Source: an uncultured Nitrospirota bacterium
Lineage (GTDB): Bacteria; Nitrospirota; Nitrospiria; Nitrospirales; UBA8639
Assembly (NCBI GenBank): GCA_937139405.1
Contig: CAKZPV010000030.1
Span: 1-59,865, forward strand
Length of the DNA stretch: 59,865 bases
Direction of reading: 5' to 3'
Shown here: one piece after another, positions 15,554-24,014 of the stretch
Layout of the letters: every line of letters begins with the position of its first letter
How positions within the stretch are numbered: the stretch's first letter is position 1
The notes under the pieces: generated by a model
Databases searched by the model: none
What the model was told of the DNA's origin: nothing
Seen by the model: the letters and a program-made list of their open reading frames with translations, nothing else
Translations under genes and position numbers: made by a program

Positions 15554-16177
15554 ATGCGTCTACCATCTCTCACTCGACCATTACCAACTTTATCTGGGAT
15601 AGCCGGAGGCCTCGTTCTTCTTTTAGGCATACTGACGACTCCCTCCATCGCAGAGAAGAAAGGAGACCACGTTTATACGTTTAATGAGGAAGACGAACTT
15701 CTTCAACCCTTGGACTGGGAAATACCCTCGAATTGGCGGGAGTGGGTTTATGTCGGGACACCCCTTACCCCAAATGAACTGAATAATGGAAAAGCCTCAT
15801 TTCCTGAATTTCATTCTGTGTACATTCACCCAGATCATTTCAAGGTATGGAAAAGGACTGGAGCCTTTCCTGACGGCACCATCATGATAAAGGAAATGAC
15901 GAGTGTTGGCTCCAAGCAAGCTGTGAGCGGGCAAGGCTATTTTATGGGAGAGTATTTAGGGTTAGAAGCCACGATTAAGGATTCGAAGCGATTTAAAGAT
16001 GAGCCAGGATTTTGGGCTTACTTCAGTTGGACACGAGAAGGGCAACCACGGGCGAAGACAACGAAAGCCGAGCCAGCCGGTAAGTGTAATATCTGCCACC
16101 AGTCGTTTGCTAAGGATGATTGGGTCTTTACCCAGTATTACCCTGTTCTCCGAGCAGCCAAGCCAGGTCGTCATTAA
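15554..16177 (+). CDS. Cytochrome P460 family protein, exported
   Basis: 207 residues, starting seven bases after AAAGGAG. A signal peptide runs to about residue 33 (GGLVLLLGILTTPSIAE). The heme attachment motif CNICH is at residues 178-182, followed by YYPVLRA, which is the typical C-terminal end of the cytochrome P460 family. In Nitrosomonas, P460 oxidises hydroxylamine (and NO) to nitrous oxide or nitrite, using a heme cross-linked to a Lys. The FPDGTIMIKE segment near 105-114 is conserved in the fold and may hold that Lys, but the cross-link cannot be proven from sequence. It heads a run of exported proteins, divergent from the TPR regulator. Relatives with other roles exist. Confidence 0.9.
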   Translation: MRLPSLTRPLPTLSGIAGGLVLLLGILTTPSIAEKKGDHVYTFNEEDELLQPLDWEIPSNWREWVYVGTPLTPNELNNGKASFPEFHSVYIHPDHFKVWKRTGAFPDGTIMIKEMTSVGSKQAVSGQGYFMGEYLGLEATIKDSKRFKDEPGFWAYFSWTREGQPRAKTTKAEPAGKCNICHQSFAKDDWVFTQYYPVLRAAKPGRH

Positions 16178-16266
16178 AGGTCACAACGCGTGTTTCGTCT
16201 TTTCCGTTTGGTCATGTTCAGAAATAAGACAAAACTGTCCATTCGCTTATTCACGGAGGTAACAAG

Positions 16267-16662
16267 ATGATAAAGATTACTCTATCAGCAATATGCTCCA
16301 TTTTCGTTCTCATGGTCGGCTTGGCATGGGCTGAACACCCTGGTGTTGCCACCACCCATCGTGACGCCATTCAGAAAGCCATGATGACGCACATCGAGAA
16401 GGTCACAGAACACAATGCAAACGGCATGTATCCAGTGTTCGATCCTGATGCGAAAGCCATGGTTCAGGTGAAGCTCATCCAATTTCACAACAGCGTGGAA
16501 ATCATGGGGAGGGCCACTCCCTATTTTGTGAGTTGTGCCGATTTCAAGGCCGAGGATGGGACGCTCTATGACTTGGACTTCCTCGTTTCAAGAAAATATG
16601 CAGTCGTAGCGACTCTGGTACATGCAAAAAGCGGAAAAAAGATAAGCTATGAGATTCCATAA
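16267..16662 (+). CDS. Small exported protein of unknown function
   Basis: 131 residues with a clear signal peptide (hydrophobic core SAICSIFVLMVGLAWA, cleavage before EHPG) and a good ribosome binding site (GGAGG seven bases upstream). The mature part of about 110 residues is predicted soluble in the periplasm. It is His-rich at its N-terminus (HPGVATTHRDA, HIEKVTEHNA) and has one Cys (FVSCADF). I do not recognise the family. It lies 89 bases after cytochrome P460 and before the exported globin, so it probably shares their function, perhaps as a sensor-like or electron-transfer accessory. That role is inference from position only. Confidence 0.75.
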   Translation: MIKITLSAICSIFVLMVGLAWAEHPGVATTHRDAIQKAMMTHIEKVTEHNANGMYPVFDPDAKAMVQVKLIQFHNSVEIMGRATPYFVSCADFKAEDGTLYDLDFLVSRKYAVVATLVHAKSGKKISYEIP

Positions 16663-16789
16663 ACAGCAAATAGTCGGAATCAATATTGCCAAAGATCCTA
16701 TAGCAGTTGAAGGCTCGGTTCACAACGCGGAACGTTTTTCTTACGTGTCACTGCTTTATTTCAAGCAATAATTAATGGAGGATTTCACC

Positions 16790-17263
16790 ATGTTCAAACA
16801 ATCGGTATTTTCTAAATCTTTAGCGGCCCTATTTATCGTGCTCTCACTGACTATAGCCGGTTTGGGACACGTGATCACACCCAATCTTGTTCACGCTGAA
16901 GAGACCAAAGCGCTCTATGATCGGTTAGGGGGTATGACAGCGATTACAGCGGTGGTTGATGAATTCGTCAATCGGCTCGTGGCTGATTCGAAGGTCAACG
17001 GACGATTCGGATCGACTGATGTCGAGAGATTTAAAACACTGAATGCAGAATTGGTGTGCATGGCCACGGGTGGTCCATGTAAATATTCAGGTAGGGATAT
17101 GAAGAATACCCACAACGGAATGCGAATATCCCAGGCAGAATTCGATCTAACTGCGGGACACCTATCAAAGACGTTGAAAACATTCAAGGTCCCCAAACAG
17201 GAAACCAAAGAACTTATGGCAATCATCGGTTCATTGAGAAAGGACATTGTAGCTGCACCCTAA
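16790..17263 (+). CDS. Truncated hemoglobin (group I-like) with signal peptide
   Basis: The start at 16790 has GGAGG eight bases upstream; an in-frame codon at 16775 has none. The protein, 157 residues, begins with a signal peptide (LAALFIVLSLTIAGLG, cleavage near VHAEE). A truncated globin domain follows: ALYDRLGGMTAITAVVDEFV, CKYSGRDMKNTHNGMRIS. His108 in THNGM is the proximal heme ligand. Truncated globins bind O2 and NO and can oxidise NO to nitrate. Most are cytoplasmic, so export is notable and places this one with the periplasmic cytochrome P460. A strong hairpin follows the gene at 17302-17324. Confidence 0.93.
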   Translation: MFKQSVFSKSLAALFIVLSLTIAGLGHVITPNLVHAEETKALYDRLGGMTAITAVVDEFVNRLVADSKVNGRFGSTDVERFKTLNAELVCMATGGPCKYSGRDMKNTHNGMRISQAEFDLTAGHLSKTLKTFKVPKQETKELMAIIGSLRKDIVAAP

Positions 17264-20210: not shown

Positions 20211-21086
20211 ATGAATGCGGAACCTTCCTCCACTTTTTGGCAAACACTTGGCACAGCTCCCGTGGATGATCTTGTTGATGCGAAAATACAAATGCACTGG
20301 GCCGCGCAAATATTGGCTGCCTTTGGAAATGGCCTTCTTGAATCAAAGCCTGATGACAGTCAGTCAAACCTTGGATGGGTTAATTCCCATGGTGCCTTAC
20401 GCGGGCACCCAACATTGGATGGATGGAGCGTCGGTCTTCGGCTTGCGGATCTGACTCTACTTTTTCTTACTCCTAAGAATACTATCCAGACTGAATTTAC
20501 TTTGCACGGACGAACTCTTCAAGAGGCATTAGATTGGTTGCGAATCACGTATTCCAAGTTTTCAGGAACAGAGTCTCCGCAACCCTTTGTGTTGCGTGAA
20601 TACGATATGCCTTCCCATCCAGTTGGAGAAAATACGCCCTTTCAAATAAATCGTGGGGTGGCTTTTCAAGAAGTTGGTCATTGGTACAGTAACGCAGACT
20701 ACGTCATTCGTACCGTATCAGAGAAGTGGAAAGAAGCCTCACTCATTCGATGTTGGCCGCATTATTTTGATATTGCCACATTAGTATCTTTACCCCTTCC
20801 TCAAAACAGTGGTTCTACTGGAACGGTCGGATGTGGAATGAGCCCTGGGGATGCAAACTATGCTGAGCCTTATTTCTATGTCACAGTCTGGCCATATCCG
20901 GAAAAAGACAGACTCCAAAATCTGACCATCGGAAAATGGCATACCGAAGGGTTCATTGCAGCCGTGTTGACCGCATCCGATTTATTATCCAATGGACAGA
21001 CAGAGACTCAAGCCGAACGTGTTCACGAATTTTTCCAAAAAAGTTCTGAATTTGCCTTTGTAACCTTAGGAATATCGCCCTCGTAA
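20211..21086 (+). CDS. Uncharacterised 291-residue protein in the Rieske cluster
   Basis: A soluble protein with no signal peptide or membrane helix. I do not recognise the family with confidence. It has a Trp/His-rich N-terminal part (KIQMHWAAQILAAFGNGLL, GWVNSHGALRG) and a distinctive C-terminal block, RCWPHYFDIATLVSLPLP ... GCGMSPGD ... EPYFYVTVWPYP, with clustered His, Cys, Asp and Tyr. That density of motif-like residues suggests an enzyme or ligand-binding fold. It sits 128 bases after the Rieske-GltB gene and 44 bases before the Rieske-ThDP gene, in the same direction, so a joint function is likely. The ATG at 20211 has only a weak ribosome binding site (GAAG). Confidence 0.8.
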   Translation: MNAEPSSTFWQTLGTAPVDDLVDAKIQMHWAAQILAAFGNGLLESKPDDSQSNLGWVNSHGALRGHPTLDGWSVGLRLADLTLLFLTPKNTIQTEFTLHGRTLQEALDWLRITYSKFSGTESPQPFVLREYDMPSHPVGENTPFQINRGVAFQEVGHWYSNADYVIRTVSEKWKEASLIRCWPHYFDIATLVSLPLPQNSGSTGTVGCGMSPGDANYAEPYFYVTVWPYPEKDRLQNLTIGKWHTEGFIAAVLTASDLLSNGQTETQAERVHEFFQKSSEFAFVTLGISPS

Positions 21087-21130
21087 TTCAACGATCATTC
21101 ATATTGCATGTATGCAAAGGAAAATCCTCA

Positions 21131-23140
21131 ATGCCCTCTCTTGATAACACCCAGAACACATCCAAAACTCAACAACCTTCGCCACGCCGCATATGGCACA
21201 AAGTACTGGATGTAGAAGAACTGCCTGAAGGTCGTGTCAAAACGGTCACGGCAGGCGTCACGTCCATCGCCATGACCCACGTCCAAGGACAGTATGGAGC
21301 CCTAGATAATAAATGTCCTCATCAGGGGGGACCATTAGGAGAGGGCTCAATAGAAAATTGTTATTTGCGATGTCCGTGGCATGGATGGGATTTTGATCCA
21401 CTCACCGGAAAACCACCAGGTGGATATGATGACGGAGTCCAAACCTATCCTGTGGACATACGAAAAGATGGCATTTATATCGCTCTTGAAGAAAAGCAAC
21501 CTGATGTTCGAACGGTGACCGATGTGATGGCAGAAACAATGGTCAACTGGGGAATCAAATGGGTATGGGGCATGGTGGGTCATTCCAATCTAGGATTAGC
21601 CGCGGCACTTCGTCGTCAAGAACAGTTGGGAAATCTTCAGTTTTTTGGCATTAGGCATGAAGGCGCTGCCGCGTTTGCCGCATCAGCGTATGGGAAATTA
21701 ACTGGTCGCCCTGCGGCATGTTTCTCTATTGCCGGACCAGGGGCGACGAATTTGCTCACTGGTTTATGGGATGCCAATGTCGATGGATCTCCGGTCTTAG
21801 CCTTGACTGGACAGGTGGACACTCAAGTACTGGGACCAGGGGCATTTCAAGAAGTCGATCTTCAAGCGGCTTTTGGGAAGGTCGCCCAATGGAGTCAGCC
21901 GGTTCTTCATTCTAGCAAGCATGCTGAACTCATGAACTTGGCTTGCAAAAGTGCGTTACTACACCGAGGGGTTTCCCATCTCATCTTTCCGGATGAGGTT
22001 CAAACGATTCCCGCTTCAGAGAATACACTGTCCGGAAAGCCCAATGGTCGCATCACTCCTCTGACCATTGCGCCACCACAGGAATCGGTTGATGCTGCGG
22101 TGCAACTTCTTCAGAAATCCAAACGCCCGGTTATCATCGTAGGACATGGGGCGCGGTTTACAATGCCAAAAATTTTGAAGCTTGCCGACTCTCTCAATGC
22201 ACCAGTGCTCACCACCTTTAAGGGAAAAGGATTAATCGCTGATTCGCATCCACTTGGATGTGGAGTGTTAGGACGAAGCGGAACCCCAATTGCGAGTTGG
22301 TTTATGAATGAGAGTGATTGTTTACTCGTGCTAGGAGCCAGCTTCAGTAATCACACAGGCATCACGCCAAAGAAACCAACAATTCAGGTGGATTTCGATG
22401 CGATGACCTTAGGAAAATTCCACGCAGTAGATGTCCCCGTGTGGGGAGAACTGGGCGTGACCGTACAAATTTTTATCGATGCGCTGAAAGGCAAGATTCA
22501 ATCGACTAATCAGCGGGACGATATTGCTAACCGGTGGAAAATTTGGCGTACTGAAAAACAACGGCGGGAACTTGATGATCGAGGGAAGGGCATCAATTCA
22601 TCTTCGATTTTTTCAGCCATGACACGGATAATTCCGAGTAATGCCATTATGACCGTGGATGTTGGAAATAACACCTATTCATTCGGACGCTATTTTGAAT
22701 GTTCGCAGCAAGCCATTCTCATGTCAGGCTACCTCGGCTCTATCGGATTTTCACTACCCGCAGCGATGGGTGCGTGGGCGGCCACACAGGAACCCAACAC
22801 CCCGTTTTCAGGGCGACCAGTAGTTTCAGTGTCTGGAGATGGAGGGTTTGGCCAATATATGGTGGAAATGTTAACGGCAGTTAAATATGAGATGAATATT
22901 ACGCATATTCTTCTTCGTAACAATGAACTGGGGAAAATCAGCAAAGAACAAAAGGCCGGCAACTGGCACGTCTGGCAAACGTCTTTACACAATCCTGATT
23001 TTGCCGAGTATGCCAACTTATGTGGAGCAAAGGGAATTTCCGTTAAGCGAAAAGAAGATTTAGAAGAAGCCTTTACGAAAGCCTTGGCCTATGCTGGACC
23101 AAGCTTGGTCGAAATCCACTCGGACGCGGAATTGATATAA
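21131..23140 (+). CDS. Rieske-ThDP enzyme fusion (acetolactate synthase/pyruvate oxidase type)
   Basis: The start at 21131 follows AAAGGAA; the product is 669 residues. Residues about 20-120 are a Rieske domain with Cys62-x-His64 (CPHQGG) and Cys81-x2-His84 (CPWHGW). It has no extra disulfide Cys, so it is of the NirD/ferredoxin type. Residues about 128-669 are a full three-domain ThDP enzyme: catalytic Glu177 in RHEGAAAFAASAYGKLTG, a middle domain (about 330-440), and the ThDP/Mg motif GDG at 569-571 with NN at 597-598. Such enzymes decarboxylate 2-oxo acids and condense or oxidise the product. The Rieske domain suggests an oxidative reaction passing electrons onward. Substrate unknown. It is 16 bases upstream of a carbonic anhydrase gene. 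Confidence 0.93.
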   Translation: MPSLDNTQNTSKTQQPSPRRIWHKVLDVEELPEGRVKTVTAGVTSIAMTHVQGQYGALDNKCPHQGGPLGEGSIENCYLRCPWHGWDFDPLTGKPPGGYDDGVQTYPVDIRKDGIYIALEEKQPDVRTVTDVMAETMVNWGIKWVWGMVGHSNLGLAAALRRQEQLGNLQFFGIRHEGAAAFAASAYGKLTGRPAACFSIAGPGATNLLTGLWDANVDGSPVLALTGQVDTQVLGPGAFQEVDLQAAFGKVAQWSQPVLHSSKHAELMNLACKSALLHRGVSHLIFPDEVQTIPASENTLSGKPNGRITPLTIAPPQESVDAAVQLLQKSKRPVIIVGHGARFTMPKILKLADSLNAPVLTTFKGKGLIADSHPLGCGVLGRSGTPIASWFMNESDCLLVLGASFSNHTGITPKKPTIQVDFDAMTLGKFHAVDVPVWGELGVTVQIFIDALKGKIQSTNQRDDIANRWKIWRTEKQRRELDDRGKGINSSSIFSAMTRIIPSNAIMTVDVGNNTYSFGRYFECSQQAILMSGYLGSIGFSLPAAMGAWAATQEPNTPFSGRPVVSVSGDGGFGQYMVEMLTAVKYEMNITHILLRNNELGKISKEQKAGNWHVWQTSLHNPDFAEYANLCGAKGISVKRKEDLEEAFTKALAYAGPSLVEIHSDAELI

Positions 23141-23156: not shown

Positions 23157-24014
23157 ATGAATATCTATCGAGTATTCAATGCATCAACAAAGACAAAGAC
23201 CTATCAATCAAGAGCTTCTTTGATGCCGAACATTCTTTTGGTGTTTCTCGTGCTAAGCTCCTTCATGGCCCTACCCGTCGTGGCTTCTGAAAAATCCAAG
23301 CAACTAACCAACACACACGAGACATCATCCAAAGACCTCCAAGCGCACTGGGACTATTTAGGGGTGGAGGGTCCCCAGCATTGGGGAATGCTCTCTAAGA
23401 AATATATGACCTGTGAAACAGGCAACCGGCAATCCCCGATCAACATCACCATGACCCATCACGGAGATCATCAACAAAAGCTGATTTTTCATTACCAAAC
23501 CTCACTACTCCATGAAATGAACAATGGCCATACAATCCAAGTCTCTCATGTCTCAGGATGTCGGGTGGACCTGAATGACCACAAATACAAGCTCCGCCAG
23601 TTCCATTTTCATTCACCTAGCGAACACCATATTGAAGACAAAGCCTTTCCCATGGAAATGCACCTGGTTCATCAAGATGATTCAGGCCATGCATTAGTCA
23701 TTGCCGTTATGATGGAAACAGATGCTCCTCAACTGGTTCTTAGTAAACTCTGGAAATGGCTCCCAGAACAAACGAAAAAAGAAGTCTCGATTCCTCTAGA
23801 GTTGAGTTTGACAGATATTCTTCCTACCAACACCGATCACTACGCCTACTTAGGTTCACTAACGACCCCGCCCTGCACCGAAGGTGTGCAATGGATTGTG
23901 CTCAAAGAACCCATGCACATCACTCAACAAGATGTCGATCAATTCGTTCACATCATCGGCCACAACGCCCGCCCCATCCAACCCCTCCGTAATCGCCACG
24001 TCGATGAAGACTAA
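23157..24014 (+). CDS. Alpha-carbonic anhydrase, exported
   Basis: 285 residues; AAGGA lies nine bases before the ATG. A signal peptide occupies about residues 22-42 (MPNILLVFLVLSSFMALPVVASE). A second in-frame ATG there could be the true start of the signal. The alpha-class carbonic anhydrase domain is clear: WDYLGVEGPQHWG, GNRQSPINI, zinc ligands in QFHFHSPSEH and EMHLVH, and the SLTTPPCTEGVQW active-site loop. It interconverts CO2 and bicarbonate in the periplasm. It follows the Rieske-ThDP gene by only 16 bases, so the two are probably co-expressed; handling CO2 released by, or needed for, that pathway is a reasonable inference. Its stop is 15 bases from a convergent permease gene. Confidence 0.95.
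   Translation: MNIYRVFNASTKTKTYQSRASLMPNILLVFLVLSSFMALPVVASEKSKQLTNTHETSSKDLQAHWDYLGVEGPQHWGMLSKKYMTCETGNRQSPINITMTHHGDHQQKLIFHYQTSLLHEMNNGHTIQVSHVSGCRVDLNDHKYKLRQFHFHSPSEHHIEDKAFPMEMHLVHQDDSGHALVIAVMMETDAPQLVLSKLWKWLPEQTKKEVSIPLELSLTDILPTNTDHYAYLGSLTTPPCTEGVQWIVLKEPMHITQQDVDQFVHIIGHNARPIQPLRNRHVDED

Follow-up and report, generated by a model that had tools for sequence, protein, structure and literature searches.

A Rieske domain fused to a pyruvate-oxidase-type thiamine diphosphate enzyme, and its linked glutamate-synthase-type partner

What does an iron-sulphur cluster do on an enzyme that depends on thiamine diphosphate (ThDP)? The question is raised by a gene in a stretch of DNA of 59,865 nucleotides (hereafter the window) from an uncultured Nitrospirota bacterium, whose genome comprises 4.46 Mb and is 98% complete. 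The gene encodes a Rieske domain followed by an enzyme resembling pyruvate oxidase (POX), and its product is here called RTPP. Its coding sequence starts with the ATG at 21131, with AAAGGAAAA immediately 5' of that ATG; an alternative start at the TTG at 21104 is possible and would add 9 amino acids. The positions of this gene and of the other features discussed below are collected in Table 1.

Table 1. Location of the RTPP gene, its parts, its neighbours and related loci (positions refer to the window unless a locus is named)
Feature	Location	Strand	Evidence or remark
RTPP, Rieske + POX-like ThDP enzyme, 669 aa	21131..23140	+	Pfam, 79-sequence alignment, AlphaFold2 model
RTPP Rieske [2Fe-2S] domain, N-terminal, residues 22-120, ligands C62, H64, C81, H84	21194..21490	+	
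RTPP ThDP part (PYR, middle and PP domains), residues 128-669, with Glu177, G569-D570-G571, N597, Lys602	21512..23137	+	
RTPP Lys602 codon	22934..22936	+	alignment to PoxB and LpPOX
RGLTS, Rieske + glutamate-synthase-type FMN / 3Fe-4S domain, 544 aa	18448..20082	+	Pfam
DUF5996-related protein, 291 aa, recurrent third gene	20211..21086	+	sub-threshold DUF5996
Alpha-type carbonic anhydrase, 16 bp downstream of RTPP	23157..24014	+	Pfam Carb_anhydrase 4e-43
CDGSH-type GltS partner	L095:2671-4197	-	tandem CDGSH motifs
CDGSH-type GltS partner	L096:3182-4729	+	tandem CDGSH motifs
CDGSH-type GltS partner	L097:3608-5152	+	tandem CDGSH motifs
CDGSH-type GltS partner, frame broken	L098:2848-4095	+	tandem CDGSH motifs
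Haloarchaeal plasmid RTPP loci	L119:12004-19721; also L120, L121, L122		RGLTS in 3/4

A widespread fusion gene

An initial annotation of this region had placed an N-terminal Rieske domain on a ThDP enzyme, and Pfam searches bore this out: a Rieske domain (residues 22-95, 3.9e-17) is followed by TPP_enzyme_N (residues 128-246, 6.3e-31), TPP_enzyme_M (residues 320-446, 1.4e-32) and TPP_enzyme_C (residues 510-662, 1.8e-32). This is the POX order of PYR, middle and PP domains, with the catalytic Glu and the GDG-N motif, and all four domains were present in each of the 38 RTPP members scanned singly. The four Rieske ligands, in the pattern C62xH64 ... C81xxH84, are invariant in 79/79 aligned RTPPs; Glu177, D570 and N597 do not vary across this alignment either. 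The catalytic Glu177 and the GDG/NN motif had been numbered correctly in that annotation (G569-D570-G571 ... N597), and its expectation that the ThDP part should be active agrees with the invariance of all the key residues.

The fusion was found at no fewer than 80 loci of species-representative genomes at 64-75% identity, all but one full length; the sole partial locus among the 80 matches listed (L064) ends at a contig edge. Full-length homologues span 54-75% identity and extend over many bacterial phyla and haloarchaeal plasmids; the hosts of the 80 loci belong to Nitrospirota, Nitrospinota, Acidobacteriota, Gemmatimonadota, Planctomycetota, Myxococcota, Pseudomonadota, Calditrichota/KSB1 and others. 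Because the fusion recurs at at least 80 genome loci and also on plasmids, a frameshift, an assembly join and a chance open reading frame are ruled out. An apparently truncated copy in genome G062 is no sign of gene decay, as its sequence enters a run of N (L091). Among the Nitrospirales relatives of the window genome the gene is patchy (8/60). An RTPP-type ThDP gene occurs in 16 of 297 Acidobacteriota genomes, where 16/16 frames have at least 643 aa and thus room for the Rieske domain; as judged by frame length, none of the 297 genomes holds a Rieske-free RTPP at 64% identity or more.

RTPP is a widespread, real enzyme that is not known to have been characterised. A fusion of this kind was not described in the open-access literature searched on Rieske/thiamine, Rieske/glutamate synthase, DUF5996 and haloarchaeal contexts. 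A known characterised homologue, named in the initial annotation as a finding that would overturn its proposal, was found neither in the PDB nor in that literature.

The thiamine-dependent part, its pocket and the Rieske domain

The AlphaFold2 model of the RTPP monomer (pLDDT 86.5, pTM 0.84) has E. coli PoxB (3eya) as its best match in the PDB, with a Z score of 40.8 and an rmsd of 2.6 angstrom over 514 residues, so that the pyruvate-oxidase scaffold proposed earlier is supported by the predicted fold. HKA synthase, acetolactate synthase, HACS and benzaldehyde lyase also match the model at Z 37-41, and the reaction is therefore not given by the fold alone. The sequence comparisons pointed to pyruvate oxidases too. 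The closest solved sequences to the ThDP part are those of E. coli PoxB, Lactobacillus plantarum POX (LpPOX) and Corynebacterium PQO; the PDB sequence matches listed all start near the beginning of the ThDP part or beyond it, so none of them spans both the Rieske and the ThDP parts. Among NCBIfam models, pyruvate oxidase PRK08611 scores best (380 bits, under the model cut-off of 742), and the nearest Rieske-free relatives met were Bacillaceae pyruvate oxidases at 34-36% identity.

RTPP shares with PoxB, Corynebacterium PQO and the Bacillaceae CidC-type enzymes (about 25-36% identity) the three-domain ThDP fold, the catalytic Glu, the GDG-N motif and the active-site residues F239-Q240 and E606 (F121-Q122 and E483 in LpPOX); with LpPOX (PDB 1POX family) it shares the fold and the equivalents of Phe121, Gln122, Val394, Ile480 and Glu483. 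Unlike all of these, it carries the additional Rieske domain. In PoxB, a C-terminal extension binds the membrane. RTPP stops at the end of the PP domain (about PoxB residue 531) and lacks this C-terminal membrane segment of PoxB-type enzymes, while the Bacillaceae enzymes run about 30 aa past its C-terminal end.

A further difference lies beside the ThDP reaction centre, where LpPOX has Phe479 and PoxB has Phe465. At this site all 79 aligned RTPPs have a lysine (Lys602), as do the haloarchaeal and Mycobacteroides members. The Bacillaceae enzymes carry Met here, which indicates that Phe is no strict requirement of a pyruvate oxidase. As far as the sequence can tell, this lysine may point to a substrate that bears a second acidic group.

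The middle domain bears on whether a flavin is involved. In PoxB, FAD is held by two loops, TGLI and GTQFP; both are altered in RTPP, where they read LGRS and GASFS with invariant key positions. The R-S of the first of these also resembles the ADP site of oxalyl-CoA decarboxylase. The pocket loops 358-390 and 400-412 are the best-conserved part of the middle domain (61-62% invariant positions versus about 10% in the outer helices), and a nucleotide is therefore probably still bound. On one reading of these data, FAD would accept the electron pair from ThDP, as it does in PoxB, and release the electrons singly to the Rieske domain, from which they would go on to a ferredoxin, a cytochrome or a partner enzyme. 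Besides the conserved pocket, it draws on GxGAR, K364, K366, R382 and D421, which resemble dinucleotide-binding positions of POX, and on the nearest relatives being FAD enzymes; the invariantly altered flavin loops, the presence of Lys602 in place of the aromatic side chain that lies between the two cofactors, and the likeness of R-S to an ADP site speak against it. On balance we consider it somewhat unlikely.

The Rieske domain itself has the Rieske-type ferredoxins, CarAc first, as its nearest solved relatives. Its motifs are CPH...CPWHG, and it lacks the signature of the high-potential respiratory Rieske proteins with their disulphide bridge; a low to moderate potential is therefore expected. 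With its ligands in place, the cluster should form. The window genome also holds stand-alone small Rieske proteins; one of them (L006, G000:C33:145020-145229, open frame of 117 aa) is 46% identical to the RTPP Rieske domain over 70 residues and is a possible carrier.

Oxidation of a ThDP intermediate by iron-sulphur clusters is known from the pyruvate:ferredoxin oxidoreductases (PFOR/OFOR), to which the initial annotation had likened the protein. The likeness is apt for the proposed logic and does not extend to membership: RTPP has another architecture with neither OFOR nor 4Fe-4S domains, and no POR/OFOR or Fer4 family was found in it by Pfam at E<=0.01. We therefore rejected RTPP as a member of the PFOR family.

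A linked partner with an exchangeable iron-sulphur module

Upstream of RTPP, the window encodes a second Rieske fusion, here called RGLTS, whose C-terminal part is the FMN domain of glutamate synthase (GltS; Pfam PF01645, 2.2e-88); the initial annotation had overlooked it as a partner. Its Rieske ligands (C51, H53, C70, H73) and the cysteines of its 3Fe-4S cluster (C460, C466, C471) show no variation among 26 sequences. Like the ferredoxin- and NADPH-dependent glutamate synthases (Fd-GOGAT, GltB), RGLTS has the FMN domain, the three cluster cysteines, the SGEGG and GAK motifs and Arg317; unlike them, it has a fused Rieske domain and GTGGHLPG in place of GEGGQLPG, and Pfam found no amidotransferase (glutaminase) domain in its 544 aa. 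Glu252, Lys297 and Arg317 correspond to Glu903, Lys972 and Arg992 of the Synechocystis enzyme, and His303 to Gln978. With the three former residues kept and Gln replaced by His, RGLTS may have 2-oxoglutarate or an acid similar to it as its acceptor.

At 41 of the 80 loci listed, RTPP has an RGLTS gene no more than 3 kb away, on the same strand in 40 of these 41 and often with gaps below 150 bp. Among 33 genomes without an adjacent RGLTS gene, 21 encode the full-length Rieske type at another site (66-74%), four hold the CDGSH-type partner described below and one a fragment. No close RGLTS was found in the RTPP genomes G015, G018, G023, G025, G027, G029 and G031, many of them incomplete, nor in the gammaproteobacterial RTPP genome G687. 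The two genes also co-occur: in Nitrospirales, RGLTS is present in 8/8 RTPP genomes versus 2/52 others (p ~2e-8) and the DUF5996-like gene in 8/8 versus 1/52 (p ~4e-9), and in 350 genomes of Gammaproteobacteria a GltS-like partner is present in 6/7 RTPP genomes versus 43/343 others (p 4e-5), p values that overstate independence because related genomes share ancestry. These data suggest that RTPP and RGLTS form an electron-passing enzyme pair without earlier description. In the same 350 gammaproteobacterial genomes RGLTS is far commoner than RTPP (49 versus 7), which implies another electron donor for RGLTS in most hosts.

The window RGLTS has its Rieske domain where four other RTPP-bearing genomes (G005, G010, G016, G024) have something else: there, a GltS part of 62-77% identity opens with two CDGSH [2Fe-2S] motifs, and such tandem motifs are lacking in the window protein. 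When a tree is built on the GltS domain, one well-supported branch divides the Rieske forms from the CDGSH forms (Table 1), which make up a single sister clade, with one change over 58 labelled rows. This CDGSH-GltS form was reported in 2011 as the type 5 CDGSH protein (PMC3174974) and taken up again in 2018 (PMC5859297); the available passages of the two papers assign it no role. It resembles RGLTS in joining a GltS part, 60-77% identical to the one in the window, to an N-terminal 2Fe-2S module, and it differs in having CDGSH (3Cys-1His) rather than Rieske (2Cys-2His) ligation and in occurring mostly without RTPP.

Two unrelated 2Fe-2S folds at the same site of the same enzyme are best explained by a role of the module in electron transfer, and the N-terminal domain of RGLTS thus looks like an interchangeable electron-transfer module. 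By analogy, the same role is supported for the Rieske domain of RTPP. The initial annotation had proposed the 2Fe-2S cluster as an electron path; its role as an outlet gains independent, if analogical, backing from this exchange in a linked protein. The exchange also bears on a reading in which RTPP is a non-redox ThDP lyase, decarboxylase or carboligase and the Rieske domain a redox or iron sensor or a docking domain. In its favour, most ThDP enzymes with this fold catalyse no redox reaction, the structural match to PoxB is almost equalled by those to HKA synthase, acetolactate synthase and HACS (Z 38-41), Lys602 sets RTPP apart from the oxidases, and some RTPP loci stand in what look like stress islands (DsrE, peroxiredoxin, pirin, merA). 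We nevertheless regard it as quite improbable, given that the four Rieske ligands are constant in 79 sequences, that the top sequence matches are pyruvate oxidases and that the linked partner bears the same kind of module, swappable for CDGSH.

Between RGLTS and RTPP lies the recurrent third gene. Its product scores 14.5 bits for DUF5996, below the Pfam gathering threshold of 25 bits, and alignable relatives in similar gene clusters (L048, L075) score 190-194 bits; on this comparison it is a distant DUF5996 relative. Its model (pLDDT 91.1) had no fold match in the PDB at E<=0.001 (best E 0.16). His29, Pro183-His184, Asp187 and other residues are invariant in this protein, and its gene adjoins RTPP or RGLTS in several phyla. 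At 15 of the 80 loci listed, the gene for a Na+/H+ exchanger of one family (PF00999) stands no more than 4 kb from RTPP; remoter PF00999 proteins are encoded beside RTPP on a Halorarius plasmid and 3 kb from it on a Mycobacteroides plasmid. The carbonic anhydrase gene was rejected as a core partner since its linkage is confined to Nitrospirales (6 loci). Upstream in the window, at 15554-17263, genes for a cytochrome P460-like protein, a small unknown protein and a truncated haemoglobin stand in a row; P460-like genes occur in L010 too.

The histories of the genes differ. In the RTPP tree the window protein groups with that of G062, apart from its congeners L009-L012, and G057/G067 sit near proteobacteria; in the RGLTS tree the window, L009-L012 and G057/G067 form one starred clade with G062 outside. 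As these trees indicate, RTPP is mobile between lineages. The order RGLTS-DUF5996-RTPP-carbonic anhydrase is identical in the window and L012. Such a discordant RTPP phylogeny, with gene order and RGLTS kept, suggests replacement of RTPP in place, and the window RTPP looks like the product of horizontal transfer of this one gene. In G064 (L090), RTPP and the DUF5996-like gene are both missing and RGLTS and its surroundings are retained.

RTPP also occurs, at 63-64% identity, on four haloarchaeal plasmids (Halorarius, Halorubrum, Salinirubellus and Haloferax larsenii), the first three of which also carry RGLTS (58-59%); the RTPP-RGLTS linkage recurs in haloarchaea. A Mycobacteroides abscessus plasmid carries RTPP at 54% identity. 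The haloarchaeal proteins have SDG...ND in place of GDG...NN; at the ThDP/Mg site, GDG and LLNNxELG are replaced by SDG and LLNDDELG in L119, L120 and L121 and by SDG and LLTDNELG in L122. Genes for DsrE, pirin, peroxiredoxin, mercuric reductase (merA) and dihydrolipoyl-dehydrogenase-like proteins lie near these plasmid copies, and TauE/SafE and DUF3179 genes are also found around them. By their gene content, these surroundings look like stress islands. A general partnership of their genes with RTPP is not supported: of these genes, the exchanger family alone recurs elsewhere.

A candidate route for electrons

The analysis shows two intact fusions, their constant ligands and active-site residues, the loss of the membrane segment, the linkage and co-occurrence of the two genes and the Rieske/CDGSH exchange; the direction of electron flow, the hand-over and the kind of substrate are inferred. 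Tentatively, and ahead of the other readings, we propose that RTPP is a soluble oxidoreductase of 2-oxo acids, with the Rieske domain as its electron outlet and, plausibly, the 3Fe-4S cluster and FMN of RGLTS as the destination. RTPP would derive from the pyruvate-oxidase (PoxB/CidC) branch. Its ThDP would decarboxylate a 2-oxo acid to an enamine, which would be oxidised by one-electron steps onto the fused low-potential Rieske cluster, directly or via a nucleotide cofactor in the middle domain. The Rieske domain would thus stand in for the membrane/quinone outlet of PoxB-type enzymes. The likeliest recipient would be RGLTS, in which electrons would pass from its own N-terminal 2Fe-2S module to the 3Fe-4S cluster and FMN and be used for a GltS-type reductive reaction. 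Several points stand against this proposal: RGLTS is much wider spread than RTPP, several RTPP genomes (many of them incomplete) are without a close RGLTS, and the Rieske domain of RTPP could be regulatory.

The wide spread of RGLTS also fits a reading in which both proteins dock on one common carrier or reductase with no transfer between them, electrons possibly flowing into RTPP. Many genomes have RGLTS without RTPP, the two genes are sometimes at separate loci, and the small stand-alone Rieske proteins of the window genome, including the relative noted above, could be such carriers. RTPP is seldom found without RGLTS, however, adjacent pairs are codirectional in 40/41 cases, and no reductase or carrier gene recurred near RTPP or RGLTS among the loci examined, so we hold a common carrier to be unlikely. 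These readings overlap in part, as FAD as the first acceptor fits either recipient, and their likelihoods need not add up to certainty.

Taken at its widest, the proposal becomes a circuit of RTPP and RGLTS in Bacteria and Archaea, in which oxidative decarboxylation of a 2-oxo acid on ThDP would drive an FMN-dependent reduction, such as the amination of another 2-oxo acid, by Rieske-to-Rieske/CDGSH transfer that needs neither NAD(P)H nor ferredoxin; in organisms of marine and hypersaline habitats the circuit would be coupled to Na+/H+ exchange. We offer this as a long shot. A POX-fold ThDP enzyme with its own iron-sulphur outlet was not found among the solved structures or in the open-access literature searched, and cultured hosts exist (Haloferax larsenii, Halorubrum salinarum, Sulfidibacter corallicola). 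If the proposed electron outlet is real, RTPP would represent a second route, besides the ferredoxin oxidoreductases, that links ThDP chemistry to one-electron carriers, and the pairing would give a first function to the CDGSH/Rieske-GltS proteins, whose CDGSH form has been known since 2011 without a role in the available accounts.
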